A stretch of 64,000 nt of DNA from Actinomycetospora sp. TBRC 11914 (GTDB taxonomy: Bacteria > Actinomycetota > Actinomycetes > Mycobacteriales > Pseudonocardiaceae): assembly GCF_012933465.1 (NCBI RefSeq), contig NZ_JABBND010000016.1:62001-126000 (forward strand), read 5' to 3'. The position numbers were made by a program, and so were the translations under genes. The notes beneath the pieces are model-generated. The model saw only the letters and a program-made list of their open reading frames with translations, was not told where the DNA came from and did no database searches. This document shows positions 22,167-62,740 of the stretch, piece after piece. The number at the start of each line of letters is the position of its first letter. Position 1 is the first letter of the stretch.

Positions 22167-22186
22167 CGACCTGCCTCCCGCTCGCG

Positions 22187-37631: not shown

Positions 37632-39329
37632 ATGACGACAGCCGCAGACCGGAGCCCCGACACCGCGGCTGGCCTCGACCCTGAGTACTCCGAGGCCGAT
37701 GTCCACCAGGAGTTCGGTGAGAACCCGAACGAGGTGCGCGACACGAACCACTACAAGGACGAGTACATCAAGGGATTCGTCGACAAGTGGGACGACTACA
37801 TCGGCTGGGAGGGACGCGCCGCCAGCGAGGGCTCGTTCTTCATCGACCAGCTGCGCGCCCGCGGCGTGGAGAAGGTCCTCGACGTCGCGACCGGCACCGG
37901 GTTCAACTCGGTGCAGCTGCTCGAGGCGGGCTTCGAGACCGTCTCGGCCGACGGCAGCGCCGAGATGCTGGCGCGGGCCTTCGCGAACGGCCGCGAGCGC
38001 GGGCACGTGCTGCGGGTGGTCCAGGCCGACTGGCGCTGGCTCAACCGCGACGTCCACGGCGAGTACGACGCGATCATCTGCCTGGGCAACTCCTTCACGC
38101 ACCTCTTCTCGGAGCGTGACCGCCGCAAGGCGCTGGCGGAGTTCTACGCGATGCTCTCGCACGACGGCGTGCTGATCCTCGACCAGCGCAACTACGACTC
38201 GATCCTGGACGAGGGCTTCTCCTCGAAGCACAAGTACTACTACAGCGGCGACACCGTCACCGCCGAGCCCGAGTACCTCGACGACGGCCTCGCGCGCTTC
38301 CGGTACACGTTCCACGACGACGGGTCCGTGTACCACCTCAACATGTTCCCGCTGCGCAAGGACTACGTGCGCCGCCTCATGCGCGAGGTCGGGTTCCAGA
38401 AGATCGACACCTACGGCGACTTCCAGGACACCTACGGCGAGGACACCCCCGACTTCTGGATCCACGTGGCTGAGAAGACCTACCGCACCGACGAAGAGCT
38501 GGCCGACTCGTACTCGACGGCGGTCCACACCGCGCGCGACTACTACAACTCGACCGACGCCGACACCTTCTACCACGAGGTGTGGGGCGGCGAGGACATC
38601 CACGTCGGGCTCTACGACAGCCCCGACGAGCCGATCGCGCCCGCCTCGGCGCGCACGGTGGAGCGGATGGCCGAGACCGCGGGCATCACCGCCGACACCC
38701 GCGTCCTCGACATGGGCGCCGGCTACGGCGGCGCGGCCCGGCACCTGGCCCGGAAGTACGGCTGCCGGGTGACCTGCCTCAACCTCTCCGAGGTCGAGAA
38801 CGAGCGGAACCGGGAGAAGACCCGCGAGCAGGGTCTCGACCACCTCGTCGACGTCGTCGACGGCTCGTTCGAGAACATGCCGATCCAGGACAACGCCTAC
38901 GACCTCGTGTGGTCGCAGGACGCGTTCCTGCACTCCGGCGAGCGGACGACGATCGTCTCCGAGATCGACCGCGTCCTGGTGCCGAGCGGGCAGATCGTGT
39001 TCACCGACCCGATGGCCGCCGACGGCGCCGACACCTCGCAGCTCACGCCGATCCTGGCGCGCCTGCACCTGGACTCGCTCGGCTCGCCCGGGTTCTACCG
39101 CGAGGAGTTCGCGAAGCACGGGTTCACCGACTACTCCTTCGAGGACCACACCGACCAGCTCACGACGCACTACGGCCGGGTGCTCCAGGAGCTCGAGAAG
39201 GCGGAGAAGGCGTTCGCCGGCAAGATCTCCGAGGAGTACATCTCGAACATGAAGACGGGTCTGAAGAACTGGGTCAACGGCGGCAAGTCGGGCCAGCTGT
39301 CCTGGGGCATCTTCCGCATCCGCCACTGA
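37632..39329 (+). CDS. Bifunctional glycine/sarcosine and sarcosine/dimethylglycine N-methyltransferase
   Basis: The protein has 565 residues and two methyltransferase domains. The N-terminal half (SAM motif VLDVATGTGFNS, 82-93) matches glycine sarcosine N-methyltransferase. The C-terminal half (SAM motif VLDMGAGYGGAARHL, 358-372) matches sarcosine dimethylglycine N-methyltransferase. Together they convert glycine to glycine betaine with three S-adenosylmethionine. The natural fusion and length match the enzyme known from the halophilic actinomycete Actinopolyspora. Betaine is an osmoprotectant, so the gene probably serves salt or drought tolerance. It stands alone as a single-gene unit. Confidence 0.93.
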   Translation: MTTAADRSPDTAAGLDPEYSEADVHQEFGENPNEVRDTNHYKDEYIKGFVDKWDDYIGWEGRAASEGSFFIDQLRARGVEKVLDVATGTGFNSVQLLEAGFETVSADGSAEMLARAFANGRERGHVLRVVQADWRWLNRDVHGEYDAIICLGNSFTHLFSERDRRKALAEFYAMLSHDGVLILDQRNYDSILDEGFSSKHKYYYSGDTVTAEPEYLDDGLARFRYTFHDDGSVYHLNMFPLRKDYVRRLMREVGFQKIDTYGDFQDTYGEDTPDFWIHVAEKTYRTDEELADSYSTAVHTARDYYNSTDADTFYHEVWGGEDIHVGLYDSPDEPIAPASARTVERMAETAGITADTRVLDMGAGYGGAARHLARKYGCRVTCLNLSEVENERNREKTREQGLDHLVDVVDGSFENMPIQDNAYDLVWSQDAFLHSGERTTIVSEIDRVLVPSGQIVFTDPMAADGADTSQLTPILARLHLDSLGSPGFYREEFAKHGFTDYSFEDHTDQLTTHYGRVLQELEKAEKAFAGKISEEYISNMKTGLKNWVNGGKSGQLSWGIFRIRH

Positions 39330-43474: not shown

Positions 43475-44830
43475 ATGGACTATCCTGGCCCCTCGTTCGC
43501 CCGTTCGAATGAACTGCAGAGCCGCCTGCACGACATGGTCCCCGGCGGCGCCCACACCTACGCCCGGGGCGACGACCAGTACCCCGAGGACATGGCGCCG
43601 ATCATCGAGCGCGGCCTCGGCGCCCGGGTCTGGGACGCCGACGGCAACTGCTTCGTCGAGTACGGCATGGGCCTGCGGGCGGTGACCCTCGGTCACCAGT
43701 ACGGGCCGGTCGTCGACGCGGTGCGGGACGCACTGACCCGCGGGGTGAGCTTCACCCGCCCCTCGACGCTCGAGGTCGCGGCGGCCGAGGACTTCCTGTC
43801 GCTCGTCCCCGGAGCCGAGATGGTCAAGTTCGCGAAGAACGGCTCCGACGCCACCACCGCGGCCCTCCGCCTCGCGCGGGCCGTGACCGGGCGGGACCTG
43901 GTGGCCGTCGCCGACCAGCCCTTCTTCTCCACCGACGACTGGTTCATCGGCGCCACCGGCATGCCCGGCGGCATCCCCGTCCCCGCGCGCCACGAGGCCG
44001 TCCGCTTCACCTTCAACGACCTCGAGTCGCTGCAGACGGCGGTCGCGGCGCACCCCGGCCGGATCGCGGCGGTGTTCATGGAGGCCGCGACCGGCCTCGT
44101 CGCCCCCGACCCGGGCTACCTGCGGGCCGTCCGCGACCTGTGCACCGCCGAGGGCATCGTGCTCGTCTTCGACGAGATGATCACCGGGTTCCGGTGGGCG
44201 GCCGGCGGCGCCCAGGAGGTCTACGGCGTCGTGCCCGACCTCTCCACCTGGGGCAAGGCGATGGGCAACGGCTTCTCGATCGCGGCCCTCGCGGGGCGGC
44301 GCGAGCTGATGGAGCGCGGCGGCCTGGACACCGACGACGAGCGGGTGTTCCTGCTCTCGACCACGAGCGGGCCGGAGCTCGTCGGGCTCGCCGCGTTCCG
44401 GGCGGTCGCGGAGGCCTACCGCACCACCGACCCCGTCGGGACCATGCGCCGCACCGGCGGGCGCCTCGCTGCCGAGGTGAACGCCGTGGTCGACGACGCC
44501 GGGCTCTCCGACCACCTCGACGTCGCGGGCGACCCGAGCTGCCTGGTGTTCCGCACGCGCGACGCGCACGGCCTGCCGTCGCAGGAGTACCGCACGCTCT
44601 TCCTCGCTGAGCTGCTGCGCGGCGGCGTGCTCGGGCAGTCGTTCGTGGTGTCCGCGGCGCACACCGCCGCCGACGTCGACCTCACCGTCGCGGCCGTGGC
44701 GGCCGCCCTGCCGACCTACGCGAAGGCGATCGAGCTGGGGACCACGGACGGGCTGCTCGAGGGCCGCCCGGTGGCGCCCGCCCTGCGCCCGCACGCGACG
44801 CCGCGCCGGCGGGCCGCCGTGGTCGGCTGA
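43475..44830 (+). CDS. Class III PLP-dependent aminotransferase (glutamate-1-semialdehyde aminomutase-like)
   Basis: This 451-residue fold-type I enzyme has GGAHTYARGDDQYPEDMAPIIERG, KNGSDATTAALRLARAVTG, VFDEMITGFRW (cofactor Asp) and STWGKAMGNGFSIAALAGR with the Schiff-base Lys. The sequence resembles the glutamate-1-semialdehyde aminomutase subgroup. The absence of heme genes nearby and its place in a glycan cluster suggest a role in making an amino sugar or amino-acid substituent. It is transcribed alone, and a 2OG-type oxygenase gene converges on it. Confidence 0.9.
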   Translation: MDYPGPSFARSNELQSRLHDMVPGGAHTYARGDDQYPEDMAPIIERGLGARVWDADGNCFVEYGMGLRAVTLGHQYGPVVDAVRDALTRGVSFTRPSTLEVAAAEDFLSLVPGAEMVKFAKNGSDATTAALRLARAVTGRDLVAVADQPFFSTDDWFIGATGMPGGIPVPARHEAVRFTFNDLESLQTAVAAHPGRIAAVFMEAATGLVAPDPGYLRAVRDLCTAEGIVLVFDEMITGFRWAAGGAQEVYGVVPDLSTWGKAMGNGFSIAALAGRRELMERGGLDTDDERVFLLSTTSGPELVGLAAFRAVAEAYRTTDPVGTMRRTGGRLAAEVNAVVDDAGLSDHLDVAGDPSCLVFRTRDAHGLPSQEYRTLFLAELLRGGVLGQSFVVSAAHTAADVDLTVAAVAAALPTYAKAIELGTTDGLLEGRPVAPALRPHATPRRRAAVVG

Positions 44831-44840
44831 CCCGGGGACG

Positions 44841-45740
44841 TCAGCCCGGCACGCCCAGCACGGCGACGCCGTCGTAGCGCGCGGCGAGCTCCTCGGGCAT
44901 CGGCGCGAGGTCCGAGCAGCGGCGGAAGTCGCGCAGCGAGGTCCCCGAGCACTCCGAGTCGACGTTGCGCGACCCGCGCCCGGCCTCGACGTCGTCGATG
45001 TCGACCACGCGGAAGTCGATCGAGAAGCGGGTGCGCCCGGAGGTGTTGGGCACCGACGAGTGCAGCTGGTTGCCCGAGAACACCATCATCCCGCCGACCT
45101 CGGGCACGACCCGGACCTGCGGGTCCAGCTCGACCGGCTCCTCGGGCTTCGGCTGCTCGCGGGTGTCCTTGCCGATCTGCGAGGCCGCCGAGAACCGGCT
45201 GGTGCGGTTCCACTCGGCGTAGTCGTAGCGCCGGGACCCGTTCTTGACACCCTGCGTCATGTACTTCGGGTGGAACGCCATGACGTTGTCGGCGGTCACC
45301 GGGTAGACCGGCATCCACCAGTTGGTCTGGCACATCGGCGCCGAGTACCAGGTGTCGCGGTGCGGGTGGAACGCGTACGCGATCCCCGTCGTCAGGTAGT
45401 CGTTCGACGTCGAGGTCCGCAGCCGCGGCACGTCGAAGTAGGTCCGCTGCGGGTCGCAGCCGCGCTCGGAGAGCACCGCCGGCAGCAGCTCCTTGCAGCG
45501 CGGGTGGTGGATGAAGCGCGGCTTGAGCTCCGCCAGCAGCGCGGCGAACTTCTCGACGTCCATGTGGTGCTGCGCGGTCTCCGGGTCGAGGTCGCCGAAC
45601 GCCTCCTCGACCAGGCCGCGCGTGAAGTCCACCAGCGCGAGCGTCGCCGGCGAGGCGCCGTACACCATGACGTCGCCGCGGTACAGGTGGTCGCGTCGCG
45701 TGGCGTCGTCGAACGACGGGTTCGACAGGACGTTGGTCAC
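44841..45740 (-). CDS. Iron/2-oxoglutarate-type oxygenase (StrG/PhyH-like)
   Basis: This 299-residue protein has the double-stranded beta-helix metal site: HPHRDTWYS (His-x-Asp) and a distal His in GNQLHSSVPNTSGRTRFSIDFRVVD with the 2-oxoglutarate Arg. TNWWMPVYPVT is also typical. Such enzymes hydroxylate unactivated carbons. The streptomycin gene strG encodes a related protein of unclear role, and a shorter homologue is at 49834-50496. Its convergent neighbour is the aminotransferase, so the substrate could be an aminated sugar or amino acid. This last point is inference. Confidence 0.82.
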   Translation of the reverse strand: MTNVLSNPSFDDATRRDHLYRGDVMVYGASPATLALVDFTRGLVEEAFGDLDPETAQHHMDVEKFAALLAELKPRFIHHPRCKELLPAVLSERGCDPQRTYFDVPRLRTSTSNDYLTTGIAYAFHPHRDTWYSAPMCQTNWWMPVYPVTADNVMAFHPKYMTQGVKNGSRRYDYAEWNRTSRFSAASQIGKDTREQPKPEEPVELDPQVRVVPEVGGMMVFSGNQLHSSVPNTSGRTRFSIDFRVVDIDDVEAGRGSRNVDSECSGTSLRDFRRCSDLAPMPEELAARYDGVAVLGVPG

Positions 45741-45993
45741 CTGGCACTCCTCCCCGCGCCGACTCCCCGTTCGGGGGCCGCCGCCGGTCCGTCCGTTCGA
45801 TCTCTCGGCAACGTTATGACGTGCTCCCCCCGGAGGGGTTGTCAGGGGGTGGCGAGATCACGGACGGCGCCGTGGTCCGTGTACGGAGAGTTCCCGCGCC
45901 CCACGCCCGCCGCAGGCGTCCGTCGCCGGTCGCCTGGTGCCCCACGACGACGTCCGCCCACACATCGCGGCCGAGGCCCCCACCCGAGCGCGC
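45741..45993. other. Intergenic region with a GC-rich hairpin
   Basis: CACGGAC (45859-45865) pairs with GTCCGTG (45875-45881) around a 9-nt loop. It lies downstream of the GT4 gene and upstream of the oxygenase gene, both leftward, so it could terminate the former. No gene is seen. Confidence 0.35.
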
Positions 45994-47055
45994 TCAGCCG
46001 ACCACGCCGCGGACGATGTCCCGCAGCTCGGCGGCCATGTTCGCCGAGGTGAAGCGGGCCTCGACCTCCTTGCGGCCGGCCTGCCCCATCTGGGCTGCGC
46101 GGTCGGGGTCGGAGAGCAGCTCGGCGATCGCGTCGGCCATGGCCACCGGGTCGTCCGGGGGGACGAGCAGCCCCGTCCGGCCGTGGTCGACGTAGGTCTC
46201 CATCCCCGGGTTGTCGGTCGCGACGACGGGGCGGCCGCTGGCCAGGCCCTCGAGCGCCACCGTGAGCCCCGCCCCGACCGGGTTGGGCCGCAGCGCGATC
46301 GCGACGACGGTGGACCGCCGGTAGAGCCCGCGCATCGCCGCGTTCATCCGGCGGGCGTGGACGACGCCCGCCTCGGGCGCGAGCTGCACCGGCAGCGTCG
46401 TCGCCAGCTCCAGCCACGCCGGCACCCCGCCGGCGCGCACGCGCTCGACCGCGCCGACGAGCGTGGCGTGGTCGCGGTTGCGGTCGTCACCGACGCTGGT
46501 GACGGTGACGCCGCCCGGGTCGCGGCCCTCCCACGGCTGCTCCGGGTAGAACTCCGGGTCGATCCCGAGGGTCACCCCGTGGACCCGGTCCGGGTCGAGG
46601 TCCCAGTGCTCCCGCAGGATCGGCACCAGCCCCGGCGACTGCGTGAAGAGCCCGGCCGCGCGGCGCAGCGCGGTCATCGCGACGCGGCGGTGCGTCGGCC
46701 GCAGGAGGTCCGGGCGCACGAGCCAGCCCACGCCGGAGACCACGGGCCGGCGCCGGGAGGTGAGCAGCGCGGGGAGGCCGTTGCGCTCGTCCATGCACAG
46801 CAGGGCGTCGGCACCACGTCGCTGCGCCGCGCCGGAGACGGCGGTGACGGCCTCGTACATGTCGAGGCGGTCGCGCACCTTGCGGGAGGCGTAGGCGAGC
46901 GCGCCGTGGGCGGGGCGGCGGAAGGTGACGACGTCGCCCTCGTCGCCGAGGTGGTGGAGGCCGTAGGGGGTGTGGTCCGGGATCTCGCCACGCGCGTTCC
47001 GGAGCCGGTACTCCTCCACGTCGAGCTCTTCGGGCAGCTCCACGTGCACGTGCAT
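45994..47055 (-). CDS. GT4 family glycosyltransferase
   Basis: This 353-residue GT-B glycosyltransferase has VTVTSVGDDRNRDHATLVGAVERV at the domain junction, IALRPNPVGAGLTVALEGLASGRPVVATDNPG as the donor-site motif, and GRTGLLVPPDDPVAMADAIAELL. In the EX7E motif the first Glu is replaced (N-P-V-G-A-G-L-T-V-A-L-E), which is tolerated in some GT4 subfamilies. The ATG at 47055 has TGAGG upstream; a GTG at 47070 is possible. The acceptor is unknown. Confidence 0.86.
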   Translation of the reverse strand: MHVHVELPEELDVEEYRLRNARGEIPDHTPYGLHHLGDEGDVVTFRRPAHGALAYASRKVRDRLDMYEAVTAVSGAAQRRGADALLCMDERNGLPALLTSRRRPVVSGVGWLVRPDLLRPTHRRVAMTALRRAAGLFTQSPGLVPILREHWDLDPDRVHGVTLGIDPEFYPEQPWEGRDPGGVTVTSVGDDRNRDHATLVGAVERVRAGGVPAWLELATTLPVQLAPEAGVVHARRMNAAMRGLYRRSTVVAIALRPNPVGAGLTVALEGLASGRPVVATDNPGMETYVDHGRTGLLVPPDDPVAMADAIAELLSDPDRAAQMGQAGRKEVEARFTSANMAAELRDIVRGVVG

Positions 47056-47430
47056 GGTCGACCACCTCACCTGACCCGATCGGGCGTATCGCGCACGCTA
47101 CCGTTGCCCTCGGCGGCGCCCGACGCCCGGATTGCCCGGGTGCGCCCGGCCCCCGCACGCCGGCCCGTCCGCCGCGCGGGGACCCCGTCGTCGCAACCCC
47201 GTCACGGCCCGTCGGCCCGCCCGGTGTGACGGGGCGCCCACCTGCTCGTCGGGCGGGTGACGCAACCCCCGGCGGTCACGGAACGTCTTGTGGTCGTCCC
47301 GTCGTCCGCGCTCGGAGCAGGGAGGACGGGCACCCCGAGGAACCCCGGGACCACATCGCTACCGTGGTCACCCGACCCGACCGGTCGCCGATCGGATCGC
47401 CCCCGGCCCCGACAGGACGGACCCAGGATC
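47056..47430. other. 375-nt divergent intergenic region
   Basis: Two GT4 genes diverge from here. Open frames continue the downstream gene's frame upstream to 47257 but without homology or a ribosome site, so I leave them non-coding. No clear operator was seen. Confidence 0.35.
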
Positions 47431-48669
47431 TTGCCCGGCAGAGCGCTCATCCTCGTCGAGAACCTCTCGGTGCCGTTCGACCGCCGCGTGTGGCAGGAGG
47501 CCACGACGCTGCGCGACCACGGCTGGGACGTCGAGGTGATCTGCCCGCTGGGGACCGAGCGGGACACCGAGCGCGAGGCGGTCGTCGACGGGGTCGCGAT
47601 CCACCGCTACCCGCTGACGGCGGCGTCCGGCGGCCCGCAGGGCTACCTCAAGGAGTACGCCTCCGCCCTCTACCACTCGATCCGGCTGGCCCGCGCGATC
47701 ACGCGCCGCGCCCCGGTCGACGTCGTGCACCTGTGCAACCCGCCGGACCTGCTCTTCCTCGTGGCCCTCGTGCTGCGGGTGATCGGGCGCCGGCACGGGG
47801 TGCGCACCCGGGTGGTGTTCGACCAGCACGACCTCGTGCCCGAGCTCTACCTCTCCCGGTTCCGCCCCAAGCGCGACGCGCTGTACTGGGGCCTGCGCGT
47901 GGTCGAGTTCCTGACCTACCGCACCGCCGACACCGTCATCTCGACCAACGAGAGCTACCGCGCCAAGGCCGTCGGCCGGGGCCGGGTCCGCGGCTCCCGC
48001 GCCTTCACGGTGCGCAGCGCGCCCGCCCTGGACCGCTTCAAGCAGGTCCCGCCGGAGCCGGAGCTGGCGAAGGGCCGGGAGCACCTGCTGGTCTACCTCG
48101 GCGTCATGGGCCCGCAGGACGGTGTGGACTACGCCGTGCGCGCCCTCTCCCAGCTCGCGGAGCGCCGCGACGACTGGCACGCCGCGTTCCTCGGCGGTGG
48201 TGACGCCTACGACGACGTCGTCGACCTGGCGCACCGTCTGGGCCTCGACGACCGCGTGACCTTCACCGGCATGGCCGACACGCCGCTGGTGCGCCGCTAC
48301 CTCTCGACGGCGTGCCTGGGCATCGCGCCCGACCCGCTGAACCCGCTCAACGACGTGTCCACCATGAACAAGATCATGGAGTACATGGCGATGGGGCTGC
48401 CGATGGTCTCCTTCGACCTCACCGAGAGCCGGGTCTCCGCCGGCGACGCGGCGCTGTTCGCCCGCCCCAACGACGTCGACGAGTACGCCGCGCTGGTCTC
48501 CGAGCTGCTCGACGACCCGGTGCGCCGCAAGCAGATGGGCGAGGTCGGGCGCGAGCGCGTCGCCGGCGCGCTCTCCTGGACCCGCTCGGAGGAGTCGCTG
48601 CTCGCGGCCTACGCGACGGTCGACCCCGACCCGGCGTGCCCCACGACGCCGGCGGTCACCGACCGGTGA
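47431..48669 (+). CDS. GT4 family glycosyltransferase
   Basis: This 412-residue GT-B enzyme begins with RALILVENLSVPFDRRVWQEATTLRDHGWDVEVICP, a signature of WbuB/GumH-like sugar transferases of exopolysaccharide clusters. VFDQHDLVPELYLSRF, VYLGVMGPQDGVDYAVRAL and LGIAPDPLNPLNDVSTMNKIMEYMAMGLPMVSFDL follow. The TTG at 47431 is chosen because the fold begins directly after it; GTG at 47257 would add 58 unconserved residues. It overlaps the next gene by GTGA. Confidence 0.88.
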   Translation: MPGRALILVENLSVPFDRRVWQEATTLRDHGWDVEVICPLGTERDTEREAVVDGVAIHRYPLTAASGGPQGYLKEYASALYHSIRLARAITRRAPVDVVHLCNPPDLLFLVALVLRVIGRRHGVRTRVVFDQHDLVPELYLSRFRPKRDALYWGLRVVEFLTYRTADTVISTNESYRAKAVGRGRVRGSRAFTVRSAPALDRFKQVPPEPELAKGREHLLVYLGVMGPQDGVDYAVRALSQLAERRDDWHAAFLGGGDAYDDVVDLAHRLGLDDRVTFTGMADTPLVRRYLSTACLGIAPDPLNPLNDVSTMNKIMEYMAMGLPMVSFDLTESRVSAGDAALFARPNDVDEYAALVSELLDDPVRRKQMGEVGRERVAGALSWTRSEESLLAAYATVDPDPACPTTPAVTDR

Positions 48670-49787
48670 CCGGCCCGACGGAGCGGCGCGGGGGGGACCG
48701 GCTCCGGGTGCTCGTCGTCGGACAGGCGTCGTCGACGCCCGGCGGCATCGCCGCGGTCCAGCGGCTGCACCAGCGGTTCCTCGACGCCCGCGACGACGTC
48801 GACGTGCGGGTCGCGATCACCTACGACGAGGTGGGCCCGCTGCGGCGGCTGTGGCTCATGGTCCACGGCATCGCCCGGGCCCTCGCGCTCGTGCTCACCG
48901 GCCGCGTCGACGTCGTGCACCTCCACCTCGCCAAGGGCCTCTCCGCGCTGCGCAAGGGCGTCGTCGTCGCGGCCGCCCGGTCCCGCGGCGTGCCGACCGT
49001 GCTGCACACCCACGCCGGCGCCTTCGCCGACTGGTTCGACGGCCTGCCCGCGCCGCTGCGGCGGGCGGTGGCCCGGATGCTGCGGGCCGACCGCGTCGTC
49101 GCGCTCTCCCCGGGCGCCCGCGAGGTCTACACCTCCCGCCTCGGCCTGCCCGACGACCGCGTCGCCGTGCTCGCCAACCCCGTGGAGTGGCCGGCCGAGG
49201 TGCCCGAGCGCGACCCGCGCACCGACACCGTCGAGGCGGTGTTCCTCGGACGGCTCATCGACCGCAAGGGGGTGTTCGACCTCGTCGACGCCCTCGCCGG
49301 CCTGGACGCCGCACACCGCGCCCGGCTGCACGTGACGGTCGCCGGCCACGGCGACGCGGACGCCGTGCGGCGTGCGGTGGACCGGCACGGCCTCGACGCC
49401 ACCGTCGACGTCCGCACCTGGATCGGGCCCGACGAGCGCGACGAGCTCCTGCGCACCGCCCAGATCCTCCTGCTGCCGAGCTGGTGGGAGGGCCTGCCCA
49501 TGTCGGTGCTCGAGGGCATGGCGTGGGGCCTGTGCCCGGTGGTCACCCCCGTCGGGGGCCTCGCCACGCTGGTGCGCGACGGGGACAACGGCGTCGTCGT
49601 GCCCGTCGGGGACCCCCCGGCGCTCACCGCGGCGCTGGACAAGCTCCTCTCGGACGACGAGGTCCGGGTCCACCTCGGGGCGCGCGCCCGCGAGAGCGTC
49701 CGCGCCTTCGGCGCCGACGCCTGGGCCGACCGGCTCGTGACCCTCTACCGGGAGCTCGCCGGCTCCCGACCCGACACCACCGCCTGA
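48666..49787 (+). CDS. GT4 family glycosyltransferase
   Basis: This 373-residue GT-B enzyme has VLVVGQASSTPGGIAAVQRLHQRFL (acceptor domain), VVHLHLAKGLSALRKG, VFLGRLIDRKGVFDLVDAL and LLPSWWEGLPMSVLEGMAWGLCPVVTPVGG (EX7E). Its GTG overlaps the stop of the preceding GT4 gene (48666-48669). With that gene and the downstream oxygenase it forms a three-gene rightward unit. Confidence 0.92.
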   Translation: MTGPTERRGGDRLRVLVVGQASSTPGGIAAVQRLHQRFLDARDDVDVRVAITYDEVGPLRRLWLMVHGIARALALVLTGRVDVVHLHLAKGLSALRKGVVVAAARSRGVPTVLHTHAGAFADWFDGLPAPLRRAVARMLRADRVVALSPGAREVYTSRLGLPDDRVAVLANPVEWPAEVPERDPRTDTVEAVFLGRLIDRKGVFDLVDALAGLDAAHRARLHVTVAGHGDADAVRRAVDRHGLDATVDVRTWIGPDERDELLRTAQILLLPSWWEGLPMSVLEGMAWGLCPVVTPVGGLATLVRDGDNGVVVPVGDPPALTAALDKLLSDDEVRVHLGARARESVRAFGADAWADRLVTLYRELAGSRPDTTA

Positions 49788-49833
49788 GAAGAACAGCTCC
49801 CCCACCGGAGCGACGACGAAGGAAGGGCTCCCC

Positions 49834-50496
49834 ATGGCCGACCGGAGCGAGCACGGCACCGTGCTGACGTACGACCCGATCGAGTTCCCGTTCGCGACCG
49901 TGGTCGCGAAGATCCTGGACACGCCGGACCTCGAGAAGATCCACGACCTCGGTCGGCGGTCCGACGTGGACAACCACGATCAGGACTCCGACGACCACAC
50001 GATCTTCTACCGCGAGTACGACCAGGTGCGGGACCTCTACGACCGCTTCCTCGTCGAGTGGATCCTCCCGCAGTACGGCGAGGACCTCGCGGTGCAGCGC
50101 GTCCCCACCTTCCGCGTGCACCGGCCCGGCTCGGTCGCGGTGAGCGAGTTCCACAAGGACTCCGACTACAACCACCAGCCGGCCACGCTGAACTACTGGC
50201 TGCCGCTGACCCGCGCCTACGGCAACAACTCGATGTGGATCGAGGACTCGCCGGGCAGCGACACGTACTCGCCGGTGGTCGTCGACCCGGGCGAGGTGTG
50301 GCGCTTCGACGCGGTGAACAACCGCCACGGGAACTACCCCAACGACACCCCGACCTCCCGGGTGAGCTTCGACTTCCGCGCGATCCCGCTGCGCCTCTTC
50401 GTCGACGAGGGCAAGTCCACCGTCAACGCCAAGCGCCGGATGGACCTCGAGGGCTACTACCGCAAGCTGGGCGCCGACGGGACGTTCCAGAGCTAG
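49834..50496 (+). CDS. StrG-like iron/2-oxoglutarate oxygenase
   Basis: This 220-residue protein has EFHKDSDYNHQPATLNYWLPLT (metal His-x-Asp) and, about 70 residues later, NNRHGNYPNDTPTSRVSFDFRAIPLRLF (distal His and 2OG-binding Arg). The pattern matches streptomycin protein StrG and related sugar-pathway oxygenases. It lies 46 nt after a GT4 gene, with AAGGAAGG before the ATG, so it belongs to that operon. A second homologue is at 44841-45740. Hydroxylation or epimerisation of a sugar-linked substrate is an inference. Confidence 0.83.
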   Translation: MADRSEHGTVLTYDPIEFPFATVVAKILDTPDLEKIHDLGRRSDVDNHDQDSDDHTIFYREYDQVRDLYDRFLVEWILPQYGEDLAVQRVPTFRVHRPGSVAVSEFHKDSDYNHQPATLNYWLPLTRAYGNNSMWIEDSPGSDTYSPVVVDPGEVWRFDAVNNRHGNYPNDTPTSRVSFDFRAIPLRLFVDEGKSTVNAKRRMDLEGYYRKLGADGTFQS

Positions 50497-50498
50497 CG

Positions 50499-50544
50499 CA
50501 TGTGAACGGATGTGGTCGCCATGACGACCACATCCGTTCACATG
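50499..50544. terminator. Perfect 20-bp hairpin between convergent genes
   Basis: CATGTGAACGGATGTGGTCG (50499-50518) and its exact complement (50525-50544) flank a 6-nt loop. It starts 3 nt after the oxygenase stop, and the galE stop codon lies inside the right arm. A bidirectional terminator is likely. Confidence 0.8.
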
Positions 50545-51485
50545 ACCATCTGGTCTATCCCCCGCGACGCGCGCCAGCCGAGCACGTCCGCGATCCGGGT
50601 CGCGTCGGCGACGACGCGGGCCGGGTCGCCGGGGCGCCGCGGCGCCACCCGGTAGGGCACCGGCCGGCCGCGCACCCGCTCGACGGCGCCCACCACCTCG
50701 AGCACGCTGGTGGGCTCGTTGCGCCCCACGTTGAGCACCCCCGGCGAGGGAGCGTCGTCGTCGAGCAGCACCTGCGCCGCCGCCACGTGGGCCTCGGCGA
50801 GGTCCTCGACGTGGACGTAGTCGCGCAGGCAGGTGCCGTCGGGCGTCGGCCAGTCGTCGCCGAACACGCTCAGCGGCTCGCCCGACTCCGCCGCCCGCGC
50901 CACGAGCGGCAGCAGGTTCGTCGCCCCGCGGTCGGCCAGCGCCGCCGACGCCGCACCCGCCACGTTGAAGTAGCGCAGCGCGCACCAGCGCAGCCCCGCG
51001 GCCTCGGCGTGGCGGCGCACCGCCCACTCGCCGGCGAGCTTCGTCTCGCCGTACGGGCTCGTCGGCAGCGTCGGGAAGTCCTCGCCCACCGGGTCCGCGC
51101 CCGTCTCGCCGTAGACCGCCGCGCTCGAGGAGTACAGGACGCGGCCGATCCCGGCCGCCGTCGCCGCCCGCAGCAGCGCGACGGTGCCCCCGACGTTCTC
51201 CTCGTAGTAGTGCAGCGGCACGGCGACCGACTCCGGCACCGACTTCTTCGCGGCGAGGTGCACCACGCCGTCCAGGCGACGCCGGGAGGTGAGGCCGGTG
51301 AGCATCGCGGGCAGGTCCGGGTCGAGCAGGCTCGTGCGCACCAGGTGGACGTCGTCGGGCAGGCGCTCCGCCAGTCCGCTCGAGAGGTCGTCGAGCACGA
51401 CGGCGTCGTGACCCGCGGCCCGCAGGGCGCGCAGGACGTGGGCGCCGATGTAGCCGGCCCCACCGGTCAGCAGCCAGGTGCTCAC
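50538..51485 (-). CDS. galE: UDP-glucose 4-epimerase
   Basis: This 315-residue extended SDR has GGAGYIGAH (8-16) for NAD, SSSAAVYGE and the catalytic Tyr-x3-Lys in SPYGETKLAGEW, and RYFNVAGA, as expected for GalE. It interconverts UDP-glucose and UDP-galactose (or the N-acetyl forms). The GTG at 51485 has TAGGGT 7 nt upstream, a leaderless start, and diverges from the flippase gene by 89 nt. The last three codons and stop are inside the terminator hairpin. Confidence 0.92.
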   Translation of the reverse strand: MSTWLLTGGAGYIGAHVLRALRAAGHDAVVLDDLSSGLAERLPDDVHLVRTSLLDPDLPAMLTGLTSRRRLDGVVHLAAKKSVPESVAVPLHYYEENVGGTVALLRAATAAGIGRVLYSSSAAVYGETGADPVGEDFPTLPTSPYGETKLAGEWAVRRHAEAAGLRWCALRYFNVAGAASAALADRGATNLLPLVARAAESGEPLSVFGDDWPTPDGTCLRDYVHVEDLAEAHVAAAQVLLDDDAPSPGVLNVGRNEPTSVLEVVGAVERVRGRPVPYRVAPRRPGDPARVVADATRIADVLGWRASRGIDQMVM

Positions 51486-51574: not shown

Positions 51575-53368
51575 ATGAGCACCCGGTCCACGGCGATCGC
51601 GCGTGGCGTCGTCATCCAGGTGCTGGCGAAGTTCTCGGCCCTCCCGCTGTCGATGGTGACGATCGCCATCGCGACCCGCTACCTCGGTTCGAACGGCTAC
51701 GGCGTCATGGCCACCGCCGTCGTCTTCGCGCAGACGTTCGAGGCGTTCACCGAGCTCGGCGTAGGCACGATCGTCGTGCGGCGGGTGACCGGGCACGGCG
51801 GGAACCTCGAGCGCCTCGTCGGGATGAACGTCTCCTTCTCGACGCTGTACGCGCTGCCGCTGGCGATCGTCGCGGGCGTCGCGGGGGTCGGGGTCTACTG
51901 GGGCGACTGGCAGCAGCAGGCCGCGGTGCTCGTGCTCGCTGGCGGGCTGATCTTCACCACGATCTCCAGCTGCTACGAACCGGTCTTCGACATCAAGGTC
52001 CGGTACTCGTCGGCGGCCTCCGCGGAGTTCTTCTCGCGGATCCTGACGCTGTCCTCCGCGGCCGCCGTCGCCTACTTCGACCTGGGCCTGCTCGCGATGT
52101 GCGCCGTGCAGATCCTCCCCCAGGCGCTCCGGTTGGTCATCCAGTGGTGGGGCGCGCGGCGCCTGGCCGAGATCCGCTGGGTGGTCGACTGGCGGCGGAT
52201 GGGCGGCCTGCTCAAGGAGGCCTTCCCGCTCACCGTCATCGCGGTCATCGCGGTGCTCTACTGGCGCGCGGACGGCCTCATCCTCTCCGTGCTCGCCCCG
52301 GCCGAGCAGGTCTCGGGCTACTACACGGCCCTGCAGATCGCCTTCACGCTGACGCTCATCTCGCAGGTCTTCGAGAGATCCGTGCTCTCGACGATCAACG
52401 AGACGTTCAACACCGACCGACCACGGTTCGCCCGGGCCGTCGACCAGGGCTACCGCTTCCTGCTGCTCGTCGGGGTACCGATCGCGGTGATCGGCTGGCC
52501 GCTGGCGCACCGCATGGCCGACATCGTCGGCGGCAAGGGCGGGGTCGGCGCGTTCGCTGGGCCACCGCTGCAGTTCTTCTTCATCGCGGTGGCGATGACG
52601 TTCCTGTCCGCGATCGTCTCCGACGGCCTCATCGCGGCCCACGAGCAGCGCTACCTGACGACGATGTCGACGATCAACCTCGTCGTGAACTGCGTCGGCA
52701 ACGTCCTGCTCGTCCCCCACCTCGGCGCGGTGGCCTGCGGGATCATGCTCCTGGTCACCGAGACCATCGGCGTCACGATGTCGCAGTGGCGCCTGCGCCG
52801 GCACGGGGTGCACCCGCTCCCGTTCGGCTACCTGCTGCGGCTGCTGCCCGCGGGCGCGCTGGCGCTGGGCGCGATCTGGCTGACCTACGACCTGCCGCTG
52901 ATCGTGCCGCTGGCGGCGGGCGGGATCGCCTACTTCGGCGGCGCCCTGCTCGTCGGGGCGATCCCGGCGAGCATGCGCAACGCGCTCCTCGGGGCCCTGC
53001 GCCCGCGCAGCCTCGACCGCATGGAGGCGGAGGCGGCCGCCGCGGCCGACCAGGAGGGCCTCGGCGTCGCGCCCTCGGGGCCCACGGTCGGGCCCTTCCC
53101 GGACCCGGGCGCGCTGGACGCGGAGACGACGGTGCTGCCCGAGATGGCGCGGGTGCCGGACTCCCGCGCCCCCGCGGACGCGCTCGACGCCGAGACCACC
53201 CAGCTGCGGCCCCAGGCGGTGGCCGCCGCCGGTCGCAGCGGTCGGCGCGACCAGGTGCCCGACGTCACGGACGTCCCGACCATGGAGCTCGACCTCGCGG
53301 CGCTCCAGACCATCCGGATGCGCCAGCAGGGCAAGTACGTCGACCTGCGGGTCATCCGACGGGGGTGA
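51575..53368 (+). CDS. Wzx-like polysaccharide flippase with C-terminal extension
   Basis: The protein has 597 residues. The first 470 or so form about 13 helices of the MOP/PST flippase type (VLAKFSALPLSMVTIAIATRYLGSNGYGVMA, VLYWRADGLILSVLAPAEQVSGYYTALQIAF). This protein would flip lipid-linked oligosaccharides outward. A cytoplasmic tail of about 120 residues is rich in acidic residues and contains a repeated DAETT element (ALDAETTVLP and ALDAETTQLR). Similar Thr-rich tails are phosphorylated in other actinobacterial proteins, but this is speculative here. It is the second flippase of the window. Confidence 0.9.
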   Translation: MSTRSTAIARGVVIQVLAKFSALPLSMVTIAIATRYLGSNGYGVMATAVVFAQTFEAFTELGVGTIVVRRVTGHGGNLERLVGMNVSFSTLYALPLAIVAGVAGVGVYWGDWQQQAAVLVLAGGLIFTTISSCYEPVFDIKVRYSSAASAEFFSRILTLSSAAAVAYFDLGLLAMCAVQILPQALRLVIQWWGARRLAEIRWVVDWRRMGGLLKEAFPLTVIAVIAVLYWRADGLILSVLAPAEQVSGYYTALQIAFTLTLISQVFERSVLSTINETFNTDRPRFARAVDQGYRFLLLVGVPIAVIGWPLAHRMADIVGGKGGVGAFAGPPLQFFFIAVAMTFLSAIVSDGLIAAHEQRYLTTMSTINLVVNCVGNVLLVPHLGAVACGIMLLVTETIGVTMSQWRLRRHGVHPLPFGYLLRLLPAGALALGAIWLTYDLPLIVPLAAGGIAYFGGALLVGAIPASMRNALLGALRPRSLDRMEAEAAAAADQEGLGVAPSGPTVGPFPDPGALDAETTVLPEMARVPDSRAPADALDAETTQLRPQAVAAAGRSGRRDQVPDVTDVPTMELDLAALQTIRMRQQGKYVDLRVIRRG

Positions 53369-53470: not shown

Positions 53471-55483
53471 GTGACCCGTGACCTGGCGGTGCTGATCGTG
53501 TCGTACCGGCGGGCGGACCTGCTCGAGGCCGCCCTGCGCAGCGTCGAGAAGCACCTGCCGGACACCCCGGTCCACGTCTGGGACAACGCCTCGTCGGGCT
53601 CGGAGCAGGTGCGCGAGCTCGCCCACGCGTGGCCGGAGGTCCACTGGACGTTCTCCGACACCAACGTCGGCTACATCACCGCGATGAACCAGCTCGCGGC
53701 GCAGGTGCCCGACGCGGACATGCTCCACCTCAACCCGGACGCCGAGCTGCTCGGGCCGCTCACGGCGGCCCGGGCCGCCCTCGCGCAGCCGCGGGTCGCG
53801 GCCGTCTCGCCGACGGTGGTCGACCCGGAGGGGCGGGAGCGGCCGTGGGACGTGGCGCACCGGGCGCCGTCGGTGCTGCGGACCCTGGCCGACGCCGCCG
53901 GATACGCCCGCCGGCTCAGCGACCACCGCTGGCTCTCGGGGCTCTCGGACCTCTACCCCCGCCCGCCGCACGAGGTGGACGGCTTCATGGCCGGCTGCTG
54001 CCTGCTGATCTCCCGCGAGGCCTGGACGGCGCTGGGTCCGTTCGACGAGCGGTTCTTCGTCTACGGCGAGGACGCGACCTGGCAGCCCTCGGCCCGCCGG
54101 GCCGGATGGCGGCTCCTGCTGGTGGACGACGACGGCCCGCAGGTCGTCCACACCCCCGCCGGGACCCAGACCGACGACCCCCTGACCGCGCAGCGCGGCA
54201 CCGACCTGCTGAAGGCCTCCCAGATCATGTTCCTGGGCAACGCGCACAACCGCGGCCCCGGCACGGTGTTCTCGCTCGGCTCGGCGACCCTGGAGCGGGT
54301 GCAGCGCTCGAAGCGGTCCGTGCGCCGCACGCGGCTCACCCTCCAGCGCGACCGCGCCGCGGGCCGGCCCGGGGTCCTCGTGACGACCAACGACCTCGAC
54401 CTCGGCGGCGCGGAGCGCCAGCGGGTGCTGCTGGCCAACGCCCTGGTCGACCGCGGCCACCCGGTCACCGTGGTGTGCCTGCAGGGACTCGGCCTCTACA
54501 CCGCGGAGCTCGACCCGCGCGTGCGCCTCGAGTTCTCGCCGTGGTGGCAGCCGGTGGTGGACGTCGCCGGCGACGAGGCCGTCGTCGTCGGGGGCGTGAC
54601 GAACACCGAGGTCGGCTTCGCGACGACGTGGCGGGCGCTGGGCCGCGGGAACCGCGGCCTCGGTGGGCAGCGGCGCTGGTGGATGCCGGCGACGCACGAC
54701 CCCGCCGAGCTCGACCGCCCCACGTACTCCGGGGCGCTCGCCGCGGCCCTGCGCCGCGCCGACGGGCTGCTCGTCCTGTCCGCGCAGCACCACACCGACC
54801 TGACCCGCCACCAGCGGCTCACCGACCTCGTCCTGACCGCGCCGAACGGCATCCCGGCCGCCGACCCGCGGCCCTTCCGCCCGGCGGCCGACCCGGCGAT
54901 GCCGGTGCGGTTCGCGATGCTGACCCGCCTCGTCGAGTACAAGAACCCGCTGCTGCTCATCGAGGCCCTCGACGCGCTGGACCGCGAGGACTGGACGCTC
55001 GACGTCTTCGGCGACGGGCCCGACCGCGACCGGCTCGTGGCGGCGACGCCCGCGCACCTGCGCGACCGCGTCCGCTGGCCGGGCCAGGTGGCCGGCCCCG
55101 ACGCCGCGTTCGCCGAGACCGACGTGCTCTGCGTGCCGAGCGGCTTCGAGGCGTTCCCGCTCGTCATGGTCGAGGCGATGACCCGCGCGGTGCCGGTGAT
55201 GGCGTCCGCGAGCGGGACGGTCCCGGAGATGCTCGACGACGGCGCGGCCGGCGTCGTGGTCCACCCGACCACCGTCGAGGCCTGGACCGCGGCCCTGCGC
55301 GGCGTCCTCGACGACCGCGACGGGCTCGCGGCCCTCGGCGAGGCCGGGCGGGTGCGGGCCCTCGCGCACTACACCGACGCCGCGATGGCCGACGCCTACC
55401 AGCAGGCCATCGCCCGCCTCGTCGGGCACTCCTTCCCGGGCGCCCCCGACGAGCCCGCCCGGGAGATCGGAGCCGCCCGATGA
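53471..55483 (+). CDS. Bidomain glycosyltransferase: GT2 fused to GT4
   Basis: The protein has 670 residues. Residues 1-270 are a GT2/GT-A domain: LIVSYRRADLLEAALRSV, WDNASSGS, HLNPDAELLG (DxD equivalent), DGFMAGCCLLISREAW and FFVYGEDATW (rhamnosyltransferase-like). Residues about 301-660 are a GT4/GT-B domain: GVLVTTNDLDLGGAERQRVLL, AMLTRLVEYKNPLLLIEAL and VPSGFEAFPLVMVEAMTRAVPVMAS (EX7E). One chain could add two successive sugars. GGGGAGA precedes the GTG. It overlaps the next gene by ATGA. Confidence 0.92.
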   Translation: MTRDLAVLIVSYRRADLLEAALRSVEKHLPDTPVHVWDNASSGSEQVRELAHAWPEVHWTFSDTNVGYITAMNQLAAQVPDADMLHLNPDAELLGPLTAARAALAQPRVAAVSPTVVDPEGRERPWDVAHRAPSVLRTLADAAGYARRLSDHRWLSGLSDLYPRPPHEVDGFMAGCCLLISREAWTALGPFDERFFVYGEDATWQPSARRAGWRLLLVDDDGPQVVHTPAGTQTDDPLTAQRGTDLLKASQIMFLGNAHNRGPGTVFSLGSATLERVQRSKRSVRRTRLTLQRDRAAGRPGVLVTTNDLDLGGAERQRVLLANALVDRGHPVTVVCLQGLGLYTAELDPRVRLEFSPWWQPVVDVAGDEAVVVGGVTNTEVGFATTWRALGRGNRGLGGQRRWWMPATHDPAELDRPTYSGALAAALRRADGLLVLSAQHHTDLTRHQRLTDLVLTAPNGIPAADPRPFRPAADPAMPVRFAMLTRLVEYKNPLLLIEALDALDREDWTLDVFGDGPDRDRLVAATPAHLRDRVRWPGQVAGPDAAFAETDVLCVPSGFEAFPLVMVEAMTRAVPVMASASGTVPEMLDDGAAGVVVHPTTVEAWTAALRGVLDDRDGLAALGEAGRVRALAHYTDAAMADAYQQAIARLVGHSFPGAPDEPAREIGAAR

Positions 55484-56517
55484 GGATCCTCTGGCTCTCG
55501 CCCTGGCTGCGGACGCTGACGCGGGTACAGGTCGACGCGCTCCGGGCCGCCGGGCACACCGCGCTCGTCGTCACGACCGACCAGCACTACGAGAAGGTCA
55601 CCGCGCGGCCCGACGAGCGCGTCCTCGACCCGGCCATCAAGGACCCCCGGACGCTGCCCGCGCTGGCGCGGGTCACGGCCGAGGCCCGGCGGTTCGCGCC
55701 CGACGTCGTCGTGTCGGAGCTGATGCACGACCCGCGCTGGCTGCCGATGACGCGGCTCGCGCCGCTCGTGCAGGTCGTCCACGACGACCGGCCGCACGGC
55801 GCCGACGAGGAGCGGCCCTGGTACCGCGACGCCGTCCTCGACCACCAGACGCGCGCCGCGGCGGCCGTCGTCGCCCCCAGCGCCCACGTGGCGGCCGTCC
55901 TGTCCGCGCGCTTCGGGCGCCGGGTCGACGTCGTCCCGCTGACCTCCGACGTGCCGGAGTCGGACCTGCCGCCGGTCCCGGTGCCGGCCGCGGAGCGCCG
56001 CGACGTCGTGCTCCTCGGGCGGATGTCGCCCTACAAGAACGTCGACGTGGCGCTCCGGGCGTGGGCGGCGCACACGGCCTCGCCCTCCTACGCGGGCGAC
56101 CGCCTGCTCCTGCTCGGCGACGGCCCCCTGGACCGGATGGCGCTGCCCGAGCACGTCGAGTGGCGGCGCGAGCGGTTCACCTACGCCGACGTGCTGCCGG
56201 TGCTGGCGCGGGCCAAGGCCTCGCTCGCGCACTACCGGCTCGCCACGCAGAGCGGCGTGCAGGTCCTCTCCATGCAGCTCGGTATCCCGACGGTCGTCTC
56301 CGACTCCGGCGGGCTCCCCGAGTTCGCGCCGCCCGACCTGCCCCCGCTCGGGATCGACGACGTCGAGGGCCTCACCGCGGTGCTCGGCAAGCTCGCCGAC
56401 CCGGTGACCGCCGCGGGACTCGGGGCGTCGGCGCGGGAGCACTACGGGCGCCACTTCTCGGCCGACCTGGCGGCGTCGGCGTGGACCGAGGTCTTCACGC
56501 GGATGGGGCGGCGCTGA
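55480..56517 (+). CDS. GT4 family glycosyltransferase
   Basis: This 345-residue GT-B enzyme begins at MRILWLSPWLRTLTRVQVDALRAAGH. VVLLGRMSPYKNVDVALRAWAAH binds the donor. LAHYRLATQSGVQVLSMQLGIPTVVSDSGGLPE replaces the usual EX7E motif, with Gln where the first Glu is expected. That could mean altered catalysis. It is coupled to the GT2-GT4 gene by an ATGA overlap and ends the rightward unit. Confidence 0.87.
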   Translation: MRILWLSPWLRTLTRVQVDALRAAGHTALVVTTDQHYEKVTARPDERVLDPAIKDPRTLPALARVTAEARRFAPDVVVSELMHDPRWLPMTRLAPLVQVVHDDRPHGADEERPWYRDAVLDHQTRAAAAVVAPSAHVAAVLSARFGRRVDVVPLTSDVPESDLPPVPVPAAERRDVVLLGRMSPYKNVDVALRAWAAHTASPSYAGDRLLLLGDGPLDRMALPEHVEWRRERFTYADVLPVLARAKASLAHYRLATQSGVQVLSMQLGIPTVVSDSGGLPEFAPPDLPPLGIDDVEGLTAVLGKLADPVTAAGLGASAREHYGRHFSADLAASAWTEVFTRMGRR

Positions 56518-61570: not shown

Positions 61571-62740
61571 TCAGCTCACGCCCGTCTCATGGACGGGGTC
61601 CGCGACCTTCACCACCGGGTCGACGACGACCCAGCGCCCGCCCGACGATTCCACCTCCGGCATGCGGGAACGCATCTCGCCGAGCAGGTCGGTGACGAAC
61701 AGGACCACCTCGTCCGGGCGGCGCCGGACGACCTCGTCGGGCGCCACGATCGGCACGCCGACGCCGGGGAAGCGCCTGCCCTGCTTGCCCGGGGAGCCGT
61801 CCGCGACGGCGGGCAGCAGGTCGGGGCCGATGCGGGCCCGGTTGAGCAGCGGCACGGCCCGCGAGGCCGCCGCGTACCCGATCACCGACCGGCCCGCCTC
61901 CGCGCCCTCGGCGAGGTGCGCGCGGAGCGCGTCGGCGCTGGCGGCGGTGGCCGCATCGAGCCCCGCGACCACGGCGGGGTCGAGCACACCGGCTTCGAGC
62001 TCGCGGGTGACGAGCCCCTCGACCGACGGCACGTCGGCGGGGCCCGGCACCCCGCTCCGGCGCGCGGCGAGGAGCACGGTGCCGCCGTAGAGGTCGAACC
62101 AGAAGGCGTGGGTGGCCTCGAAGCCGACGGCCGCGAGCATGCGCACCAGCACCGGCGTGGAGTAGTAGGCGAAGTGGCCGTGCCGCAGCGCGTTCCACCC
62201 GCCGTCGGCGACGATCGCGGCGAGGCTGTGGAACTGCAGCAGCAGCGTGCCGCCCGGCGCGGTCGCGGCCGCCCGCTCGGCGAGCCCGGCCGTCTGGTCG
62301 GCGGCGTGCATCAGCCCGAAGCAGTCGACGACGACGTCGGCCGGCTCGCTCGACGGGGCCTCGGTGAGCCCGACGGCCGCGAGCAGGTCCAGCCACGACC
62401 CGCCGTGCGGGCTGCCGAACTCGGTGACGGTGCGCCGTGGCGCACCGTCCGGTCCGGCGAGCAGGCCCGCGGCCTGCACCCGGGCGACGGCGTCGCGGGC
62501 CTGCTCGACCATCGCGGCCGGCTCGGCGCCGCGCGGCTCCTCGGGCGTCGTGGGGTCCTCCGCGAGGTTCCCCAGCCCGCACTGCGCGCACAGCCACATC
62601 CGGAGCGGGTGCACCGGGTCGGGGCCCGGGTCGTCCGCGGCGGGGAAGTGGTCGGCCGCGGGCTGGTCACCGAGGTCGAGGACGACGCTGCCGTCGGTGC
62701 TCCCGCACCAGCGGCAGGTCACGGGCTGGGGGCTCGGCAC
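61571..62740 (-). CDS. C-methyltransferase-like protein (sugar 3-C-methyltransferase family)
   Basis: This 389-residue protein has the N-terminal zinc module CRWCGSTDG ... CAQCGLGNL. A SAM-like domain follows (VTEFGSPHGGSWLDLL, then LLLQFHSLAAIVADGGWNALRHGHFAYYS) and a C-terminal subdomain with RSVIGYAAASRAVPLLNRARI. The order matches TylC3/NovU-type sugar C-methyltransferases. The glycine-rich SAM loop is unusual (EFGSPHGG instead of EIGSNDG) and the catalytic HEH is HGH, so activity could differ. The start is GTG at 62740. It is divergent from the epimerase gene. Confidence 0.83.
   Translation of the reverse strand: MPSPQPVTCRWCGSTDGSVVLDLGDQPAADHFPAADDPGPDPVHPLRMWLCAQCGLGNLAEDPTTPEEPRGAEPAAMVEQARDAVARVQAAGLLAGPDGAPRRTVTEFGSPHGGSWLDLLAAVGLTEAPSSEPADVVVDCFGLMHAADQTAGLAERAAATAPGGTLLLQFHSLAAIVADGGWNALRHGHFAYYSTPVLVRMLAAVGFEATHAFWFDLYGGTVLLAARRSGVPGPADVPSVEGLVTRELEAGVLDPAVVAGLDAATAASADALRAHLAEGAEAGRSVIGYAAASRAVPLLNRARIGPDLLPAVADGSPGKQGRRFPGVGVPIVAPDEVVRRRPDEVVLFVTDLLGEMRSRMPEVESSGGRWVVVDPVVKVADPVHETGVS

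Follow-up and report, generated by a model that had tools for sequence, protein, structure and literature searches.

Methyl branches are introduced into activated sugars by sugar 3-C-methyltransferases, which work next to a keto group; cytidine diphosphate (CDP)-vinelose and kansosamine are also C-methyl sugars, and our literature search showed no paper on them. Passages of PMC3539893 describe the 3-C-methylation beside a keto group by TylCIII as well as a route to virenose, which was proposed in silico and uses deoxythymidine diphosphate (dTDP) or guanosine diphosphate (GDP). For the capsular heptose of Campylobacter jejuni, parts of two papers present a pathway in which the C4-dehydrogenase Cj1427 is followed by epimerases and C4-reductases (PMC10680097, PMC7949155), and a table in PMC4053727 lists SMb21416-21418 of Sinorhizobium meliloti as ddhA, ddhB, and a nucleoside diphosphate (NDP)-hexose 3-C-methyltransferase. 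In this report, we analyze a stretch of 64,000 nucleotides, referred to as the window, from the 6.5-Mb genome of the soil actinobacterium Actinomycetospora sp. TBRC 11914 (contig NZ_JABBND010000016.1, positions 62,001 to 126,000), in which the interval 43475-50496 encodes an aminotransferase (AT), two putative oxygenases (OxyA and OxyB), and three glycosyltransferases. With moderate confidence, we favor the reading that AT and OxyA act as tailoring enzymes in the synthesis of a nucleotide sugar, and that this sugar enters a Wzx/Wzy-type surface polysaccharide. The sugar is probably methyl-branched and aminated, and the gene set also occurs together in cyanobacteria and other phyla.

The six genes of the interval, which the original prediction had described as a class III aminotransferase resembling glutamate-1-semialdehyde (GSA) aminomutase, two oxygenases, and three genes of glycosyltransferase family 4 (GT4) within a glycan locus, are all present, and the GC content by codon position has the signature of coding regions (the region has 75% GC); coordinates and family matches bear out this part of the description. 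AT (43475-44830, plus strand) is a class III pyridoxal phosphate-dependent aminotransferase of the NF004856 (PRK06209) family (PF00202, 112 bits), and OxyA (44841-45740, minus strand) is assigned to the PhyH superfamily of Fe(II)/2-oxoglutarate (2OG) oxygenases by PF05721, invariant residues, and a predicted model. The sugar-nucleotide module with which they are associated is located 18-22 kb downstream of AT and OxyA and mostly outside the window. It consists of an RfbC/RmlC-like 3,5-epimerase (62782-63327, plus strand; PF00908; TIGR01221 135 bits, short of the 156-bit cut-off), an extended short-chain dehydrogenase/reductase (SDR) whose nearest solved structure is 6vo6 (63395-64000, continuing to window-equivalent position 64423, minus strand), and, on the minus strand past the window end, a PIG-L protein (window-equivalent 64463-65110), an RfbF-like cytidylyltransferase (65110-65931), and the methyltransferase CMT1 of the sugar 3-C-methyltransferase type (65962-67254).

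Within the genus, the distribution of these genes was scored in 18 Actinomycetospora genomes, AT being counted as present where high-scoring matches at 71-100% identity were found. CMT1 is present in all 18 (in G008 it is split across two contigs), AT in 16, OxyA in 11, and OxyB in eight. AT and OxyA occur together in nine genomes, AT without OxyA in seven, and OxyA without AT in two, and none lacks both; G005 and G008, the latter 84% complete, gave only weak matches to other aminotransferases. Since each of the two genes is found without the other while CMT1 is present in 18 of 18 genomes, the pair can be separated, each gene being an addition to a genus-wide core, and because of this separate occurrence AT and OxyA probably each catalyze a tailoring step of their own on a 3-C-methyl-branched, CDP-activated sugar. 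In all nine genomes that hold both, AT and OxyA are arranged tail to tail with 8-68 bases between the matched ends, and of the 16 genomes with AT, 14 have AT and CMT1 on one contig, 20-32 kb apart; the assemblies of the other two consist of about 380 and 640 contigs. OxyB is accompanied by AT in eight of eight cases and by OxyA in seven of eight. In line with the expectation that the genes are kept together in relatives, six relatives whose loci were fetched have the gene order and relative strands of the window, with two exceptions: G015 is without OxyA, and five (G001, G003, G007, G014, and G016) have an extra gene between OxyA and the first GT4 gene. This extra gene (e.g., L015, 9472-10419, plus strand) encodes a class IV aminotransferase of the branched-chain type that scores below the equivalog cut-offs; neither the window nor G015 has room for it between OxyA and the first GT4 gene.

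Beyond the genus, AT travels with the sugar module. In a phylum search of 396 genomes including the window's own, in which the best four or five candidates were scored per genome, AT was found in ten genomes including the window's own (E≤1e-80) and CMT1 in 31. In eight of the nine other AT genomes, a distance of 0.2-17.8 kb separates AT from CMT1 within one contig; the hypergeometric P value of this co-occurrence is 3.7e-9 if relatedness is ignored, four of the eight belonging to one genus and five genera being represented in total. Among plasmids, 32 records hold AT at E≤1e-60, and in all nine that were examined SDR, CMT1, RfbF, PIG-L, and RfbC are present at the AT locus, together with DUF4910 in seven and OxyA in one (S. 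americanum CCGM7). In S. fredii CCBAU 83666, AT and OxyA are located on one plasmid about 55 kb apart. The window genome contains a second AT copy (54%), which adjoins an RfbF gene at a contig end.

A gene-neighborhood analysis, which the original prediction had suggested for the oxygenases, showed that OxyA often stands beside the sugar module. A pattern-based scan of a collection of species genomes yielded 201 OxyA relatives, and at the best 80 loci, neighbors within 10 kb were counted by tblastn: RfbF at 54 loci, DUF4910 at 52, CMT1 at 41, RfbC at 41, SDR at 39, PIG-L at 36, AT at 18, and OxyB at five. CMT1 and RfbF occur together at 39 of the 80, and at 28 of the 55 loci that are at least 20 kb long; many loci are truncated. 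Two Nostoc loci show the order SDR-CMT1-RfbF-PIGL-RfbC-OxyA-AT-DUF4910, with all genes on one strand and in a span of about 9 kb, a comparable run with RfbC on the opposite strand is present in Nocardioides, and Mycolicibacterium komossense has CMT1-RfbF-PIGL-SDR-RfbC(-)-CMT2-OxyA-AT. AT lies next to OxyA in Nostoc, Nocardioides, Mycolicibacterium, and Lewinella. The module and OxyA with no AT within 10 kb are found in Rhodococcus sp. HM1 (L082) and in an actinobacterial metagenome-assembled genome (L090). In the phylum search, OxyA was found at E≤1e-40 in eight of 396 genomes including the window's own; one of these relatives (56% identity) is 2 kb from CMT1, and the six genomes with relatives of 33-38% identity contain no CMT1 at E≤1e-80. 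Near the OxyA relatives on an Aminobacter and a Pseudomonas plasmid (32% identity), no genes within 10 kb are annotated with sugar-nucleotide functions; these two and the six relatives of 33-38% identity were treated as other subfamilies. Two further proteins accompany the module, the DUF4910/M28-like protein counted above (e.g., L062, 14717-15985; 52 of the 80 loci) and a protein without a family match above any cut-off (L062, 15987-16991; 18 of the 80). A second conserved OxyA setting is formed by sixteen Frankia-type loci (e.g., L087, L086, and L101), most of which have an RfbF relative of 32-36% identity, another short-chain dehydrogenase, and DUF4910; an IspD-like cytidylyltransferase is present in 15 of the sixteen. 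Gene content, family assignments, and this conserved linkage are direct observations, as is the invariance of the candidate metal ligands of OxyA described below.

The module enzymes are consistent with the synthesis of a branched sugar. CMT1 combines a zinc-binding domain (PF08421, 75.5 bits) with a C-terminal PF08484 domain (210.8 bits), and its closest solved relatives are sugar 3-C-methyltransferases, among which 4rv9 aligns with residues 7-415 (E 2.6e-84) and places CMT1 in this group. Asp-Glu is the motif of 4,6-dehydratases, and a dehydratase encoded in the Lewinella run has Asp-Lys; the SDR has neither of these and shows the motif S-S/T-C-S-x-YG. The best solved match of the SDR is 6vo6 (E 1.3e-31), which we take to be Cj1427. 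According to parts of PMC10680097, Cj1427 is a GDP-heptose C4-dehydrogenase that was run with alpha-ketoglutarate and is followed by epimerases. RfbF has 1tzf as its nearest solved structure (E 2.4e-46) and reaches 190.3 bits with the glucose-1-phosphate cytidylyltransferase model TIGR02623, below the equivalog cut-off of 300.25; the RfbF proteins of four module loci reach 180-212 bits and a Frankia-type RfbF 286 bits. CDP as the nucleotide is supported by the RfbF family and by Lewinella, whose run encodes a CDP-glucose 4,6-dehydratase that exceeds the equivalog cut-off (362 vs. 278 bits); no relatives of this dehydratase were found in the other OxyA loci of the 80. Judged from these sequence matches, the activating nucleotide is probably CDP.

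From this gene set, we infer each reaction of the pathway, its position and order, the nucleotide, and the product. The RfbF-like enzyme would make a CDP-hexose, the Cj1427-like SDR would oxidize C4 to a ketone, CMT1 would add the methyl branch at C3, and the RmlC-like protein would epimerize C3 or C5. AT would then convert the C4 ketone to an amine, OxyA would hydroxylate or oxidize the same sugar in an independent step, and PIG-L might free an amine. The WbaP-type transferase, the glycosyltransferases, Wzx, and Wzy would build and export the polymer, and OxyB may serve as an additional oxygenase for one polymer type of the genus.

Several points weigh against this scheme. CMT1 and RfbF were not seen together within 10 kb at 41 of the 80 OxyA loci; nine Actinomycetospora loci were scored as module-negative because the module is more than 10 kb away there, and the sixteen Frankia-type loci, with their other setting, are also among the 41. 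One of the nine other AT genomes of the phylum (G343, 39% identity) is without CMT1, and on the S. fredii and Phyllobacterium plasmids no module gene is present within 20 kb of OxyA. CDP is not proven, because RfbF scores below the equivalog cut-off. No SDR was detected by tblastn on the 10-kb Lewinella contig, and the dehydratase encoded there suggests a 6-deoxy route in this organism, not C4 oxidation alone. PIG-L, DUF4910, and CMT2, a second C-methyltransferase-family protein, could not be placed firmly in the pathway. Finally, the nucleotide-sugar C4 aminotransferases known to us belong to the DegT family and not to class III.

Among the alternatives, a sequential oxidation of the branch was our initial preference: OxyA would turn the C-methyl group into an aldehyde, which AT would then convert into an aminomethyl branch. 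Acetylornithine and 4-aminobutyrate aminotransferases use terminal aldehydes and are among the solved relatives of AT, and the tail-to-tail arrangement in nine of nine genus genomes as well as the adjacency in Nostoc, Nocardioides, Mycolicibacterium, and Lewinella would suit two consecutive steps. This reading was weakened by the presence/absence pattern within the genus, as AT occurs without OxyA in seven of the 18 genomes and OxyA without AT in two (one of them 84% complete). Furthermore, eight of the nine plasmid AT loci have no OxyA in flanks of 12-18 kb, and L082 and L090 have the module and OxyA with AT not within 10 kb, so that OxyA feeding AT now appears rather unlikely to us.

An oxidized amino-acid substituent on the polymer, made by AT and the oxygenases, is about equally improbable. 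AT resembles an amino-acid aminomutase family, five relatives carry the class IV branched-chain-type gene between OxyA and the first GT4 gene, and the OxyA profile gave a weak match to a leucine hydroxylase (E 0.37), all of which would fit such a substituent; against it, both the window and G015 are without the class IV gene at that site, the cluster genes scanned revealed neither a ligase nor a carrier protein (an AMP-binding enzyme at 20580-22322 lies outside the cluster), and AT tracks the sugar C-methyltransferase. The original prediction had proposed an undescribed decoration by either an oxidized amino sugar or an amino acid; an oxidized, aminated sugar is likely and no description of it was found, and the amino-acid option has receded to the standing just given.

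The identity of AT itself bears on a further alternative, namely that it is the housekeeping glutamate-1-semialdehyde aminomutase, as the name of its NCBIfam family says. With 638.7 bits against a cut-off of 486, AT is a member of NF004856, which carries the name glutamate-1-semialdehyde aminomutase (2,1-aminomutase), and AT is 30-34% identical to a second, HemL-like gene that is present in every genome of the genus. Yet AT reaches only 209.6 bits with TIGR00713 (HemL; cut-off 527.3) and falls outside this family, a distinct HemL above this cut-off (582 vs. 527 bits) is encoded by a separate gene on contig C4 of the genome, and AT proper was not found in two of the 18 genus genomes, all of which makes a housekeeping role highly improbable. 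As all five AT relatives from sugar modules of several phyla (L099, L119, L069, L097, and L039) reach 667-730 bits with NF004856, the aminomutase label on members of this family in sugar modules is probably misleading. An aminoglycoside-type small molecule, the parallel drawn in the original prediction, is just as remote and is not upheld, for although solved C-6' aminotransferases are found among the AT relatives (79 bits) and two of four plasmid OxyB relatives are annotated as StrG (28-29% identity), AT is far nearer to the GSA-type enzymes (169 bits), is a member of NF004856, and is accompanied by a C-methyltransferase module for NDP-sugars. The many glycosyltransferases, together with WbaP, Wzx, and Wzy, mark a polymer locus, and no DegT or dehydroquinate-synthase-like match was obtained among the cluster genes scanned, a few small open reading frames being outside the scan.

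The two oxygenases, which had been described as StrG/PhyH-type enzymes, are not equivalent: OxyA has 201 relatives and is often linked to the module, and close relatives of OxyB were seen in the genus only. OxyA narrowly passes the PhyH model PF05721 (23.5 bits, cut-off 22), so that the PhyH part of the description stands; a Nostoc relative gave no PF05721 match at E≤0.01, and with TIGR04324, OxyA reaches 18.6 bits, far below the cut-off of 150. All 46 aligned rows have H127, D129, H227, and R238, and by motif the first three constitute a candidate 2-His-1-carboxylate iron triad. The predicted model of OxyA has a mean predicted local distance difference test (pLDDT) value of 82.6, with values below 50 for residues 118-130, which hold the HxD motif (H127 and D129). 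It matches PtlH (Z 14.1, root-mean-square deviation 3.9 over 226 residues) and PHYHD1 (Z 12.1, root-mean-square deviation 4.4 over 222 residues), and Foldseek by itself gave modest TM-scores of 0.33-0.45 by query length among the 50 matches listed. Sequence searches of solved structures with OxyA and with OxyB gave no usable match.

OxyB (49834-50496, plus strand) is a second, small, putative Fe/2OG oxygenase recognized by an HxD motif (H107/D109) and a distal histidine (H165). It has no Pfam match at E≤0.1, and with TIGR04324, named "sporadic carbohydrate cluster 2OG-Fe(II) oxygenase", it reaches 36.2 bits against a cut-off of 150; its predicted model, from a six-row alignment at 92-95% identity, has a pLDDT of 35.5, too low for use. 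No OxyB relatives were found in the 396 phylum genomes except in its own genome, and none outside the genus among 61 relatives, with genomes of other phyla outside this search. Four plasmid records contain relatives of 28-37% identity, and the name StrG enters as the annotation of two of these. In two of the four, from Azospirillum and Mycetohabitans, the gene of the OxyB relative comes after that of a large protein with a methyltransferase annotation.

The polysaccharide locus is far larger than the interval 43475-50496 and extends beyond the window end. The three GT4 glycosyltransferases of the interval (45994-47055, minus strand; 47431-48669 and 48666-49787, plus strand) were assigned by family match, with refined starts. 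After the interval come a GalE-type epimerase (50538-51485, minus strand; TIGR01179, 321 vs. 262 bits), a Wzx-type flippase (51575-53368, plus strand; PF13440, 78.6 vs. 23 bits), a GT2-GT4 fusion glycosyltransferase (53471-55483, plus strand), and a further GT4 glycosyltransferase (55480-56517, plus strand). On the minus strand are a Wzz-like chain-length protein (56720-59008; TIGR01006, 39 bits, short of the 296-bit cut-off), which has a very long low-complexity Pro/Ala/Gly/Ser/Gln tail, a Wzy/O-antigen-ligase-type polymerase (59017-61188; PF04932, 50.3 vs. 31.7 bits), and CMT2 (61571-62740; PF08421 and PF08484). A WbaP-type sugar transferase is encoded past the window end (window-equivalent 67286-68926, minus strand; TIGR03025, 392 vs. 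296 bits). With initiator, Wzx, and Wzy all above their cut-offs, the WbaP/Wzx/Wzy polysaccharide locus is complete; scores with the more specific NCBIfam models for WbaP, WcaJ, and MurJ/Wzx fell below the respective thresholds. Elsewhere in the window, a protein of 954 residues (31317-34181, minus strand) combines an N-terminal half that weakly resembles flippases (PF01943, 20.5 bits against a cut-off of 28) with a GT4 C-terminal half. A fused glycine/sarcosine and sarcosine/dimethylglycine N-methyltransferase (37632-39329, plus strand; NF051855, 480 vs. 350 bits; NF041675, 382 bits, below the cut-off of 550) borders the locus, has 86-94% identity in nine relatives, and likely functions in glycine betaine synthesis. 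A Tle1-like phospholipase catalytic domain (PF09994, 223 bits) is encoded at 8003-9481 (plus strand).

In comparison with described systems, the single parts of this locus are of known kinds, and no description was found of their combination, in which a pathway for a branched nucleotide sugar supplies a polysaccharide; our search of the open-access literature, mainly of titles and abstracts and with subscription journals mostly outside it, gave none for the module. We know of no class III aminotransferase for nucleotide sugars. The preferred reading assigns to a surface sugar found repeatedly across several phyla, and so far unassigned, a concrete pathway that can be tested. It also connects genes for nucleotide sugars with an oxygenase of the PhyH family and suggests that the curated name of NF004856 misleads in polysaccharide loci. 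A wider proposal, which we put forward only tentatively and consider rather doubtful, is that an operon which has probably moved between phyla (Actinomycetota, cyanobacteria, Bacteroidota, and rhizobia) makes a new CDP-activated 3-C-methyl-branched amino sugar, mostly by C4 oxidation and not 4,6-dehydration, with class III amination and PhyH hydroxylation; if true, NF004856 would be a sugar aminotransferase under a wrong name.

With the antibiotic 3-C-methyltransferase pathways (D-mycarose, 4rv9; TcaB9), the locus shares CMT1, which is related to 4rv9 over its full length and has the PF08421 and PF08484 domains, but it adds a cytidylyltransferase-like protein, a Cj1427-like SDR, PIG-L, a class III AT, and a PhyH oxygenase, and its setting is that of a polysaccharide. 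Sugars of the virenose, vinelose, and kansosamine type likewise carry a 3-C-methyl branch on a keto nucleotide sugar, yet in this analysis none was linked with an aminotransferase of NF004856 or with an oxygenase of the PhyH type. The S. meliloti trio resembles the module in its cytidylyltransferase and C-methyltransferase, but differs in having a CDP-glucose 4,6-dehydratase, and the table gives no aminotransferase, oxygenase, or product for the trio (PMC4053727). As in the capsular heptose modification of C. jejuni, an SDR of the C4-oxidation type stands beside an RmlC-like epimerase, whereas in Actinomycetospora no C4 reductase was identified, C-methylation and amination are added, and the nucleotide is probably CDP and not GDP.

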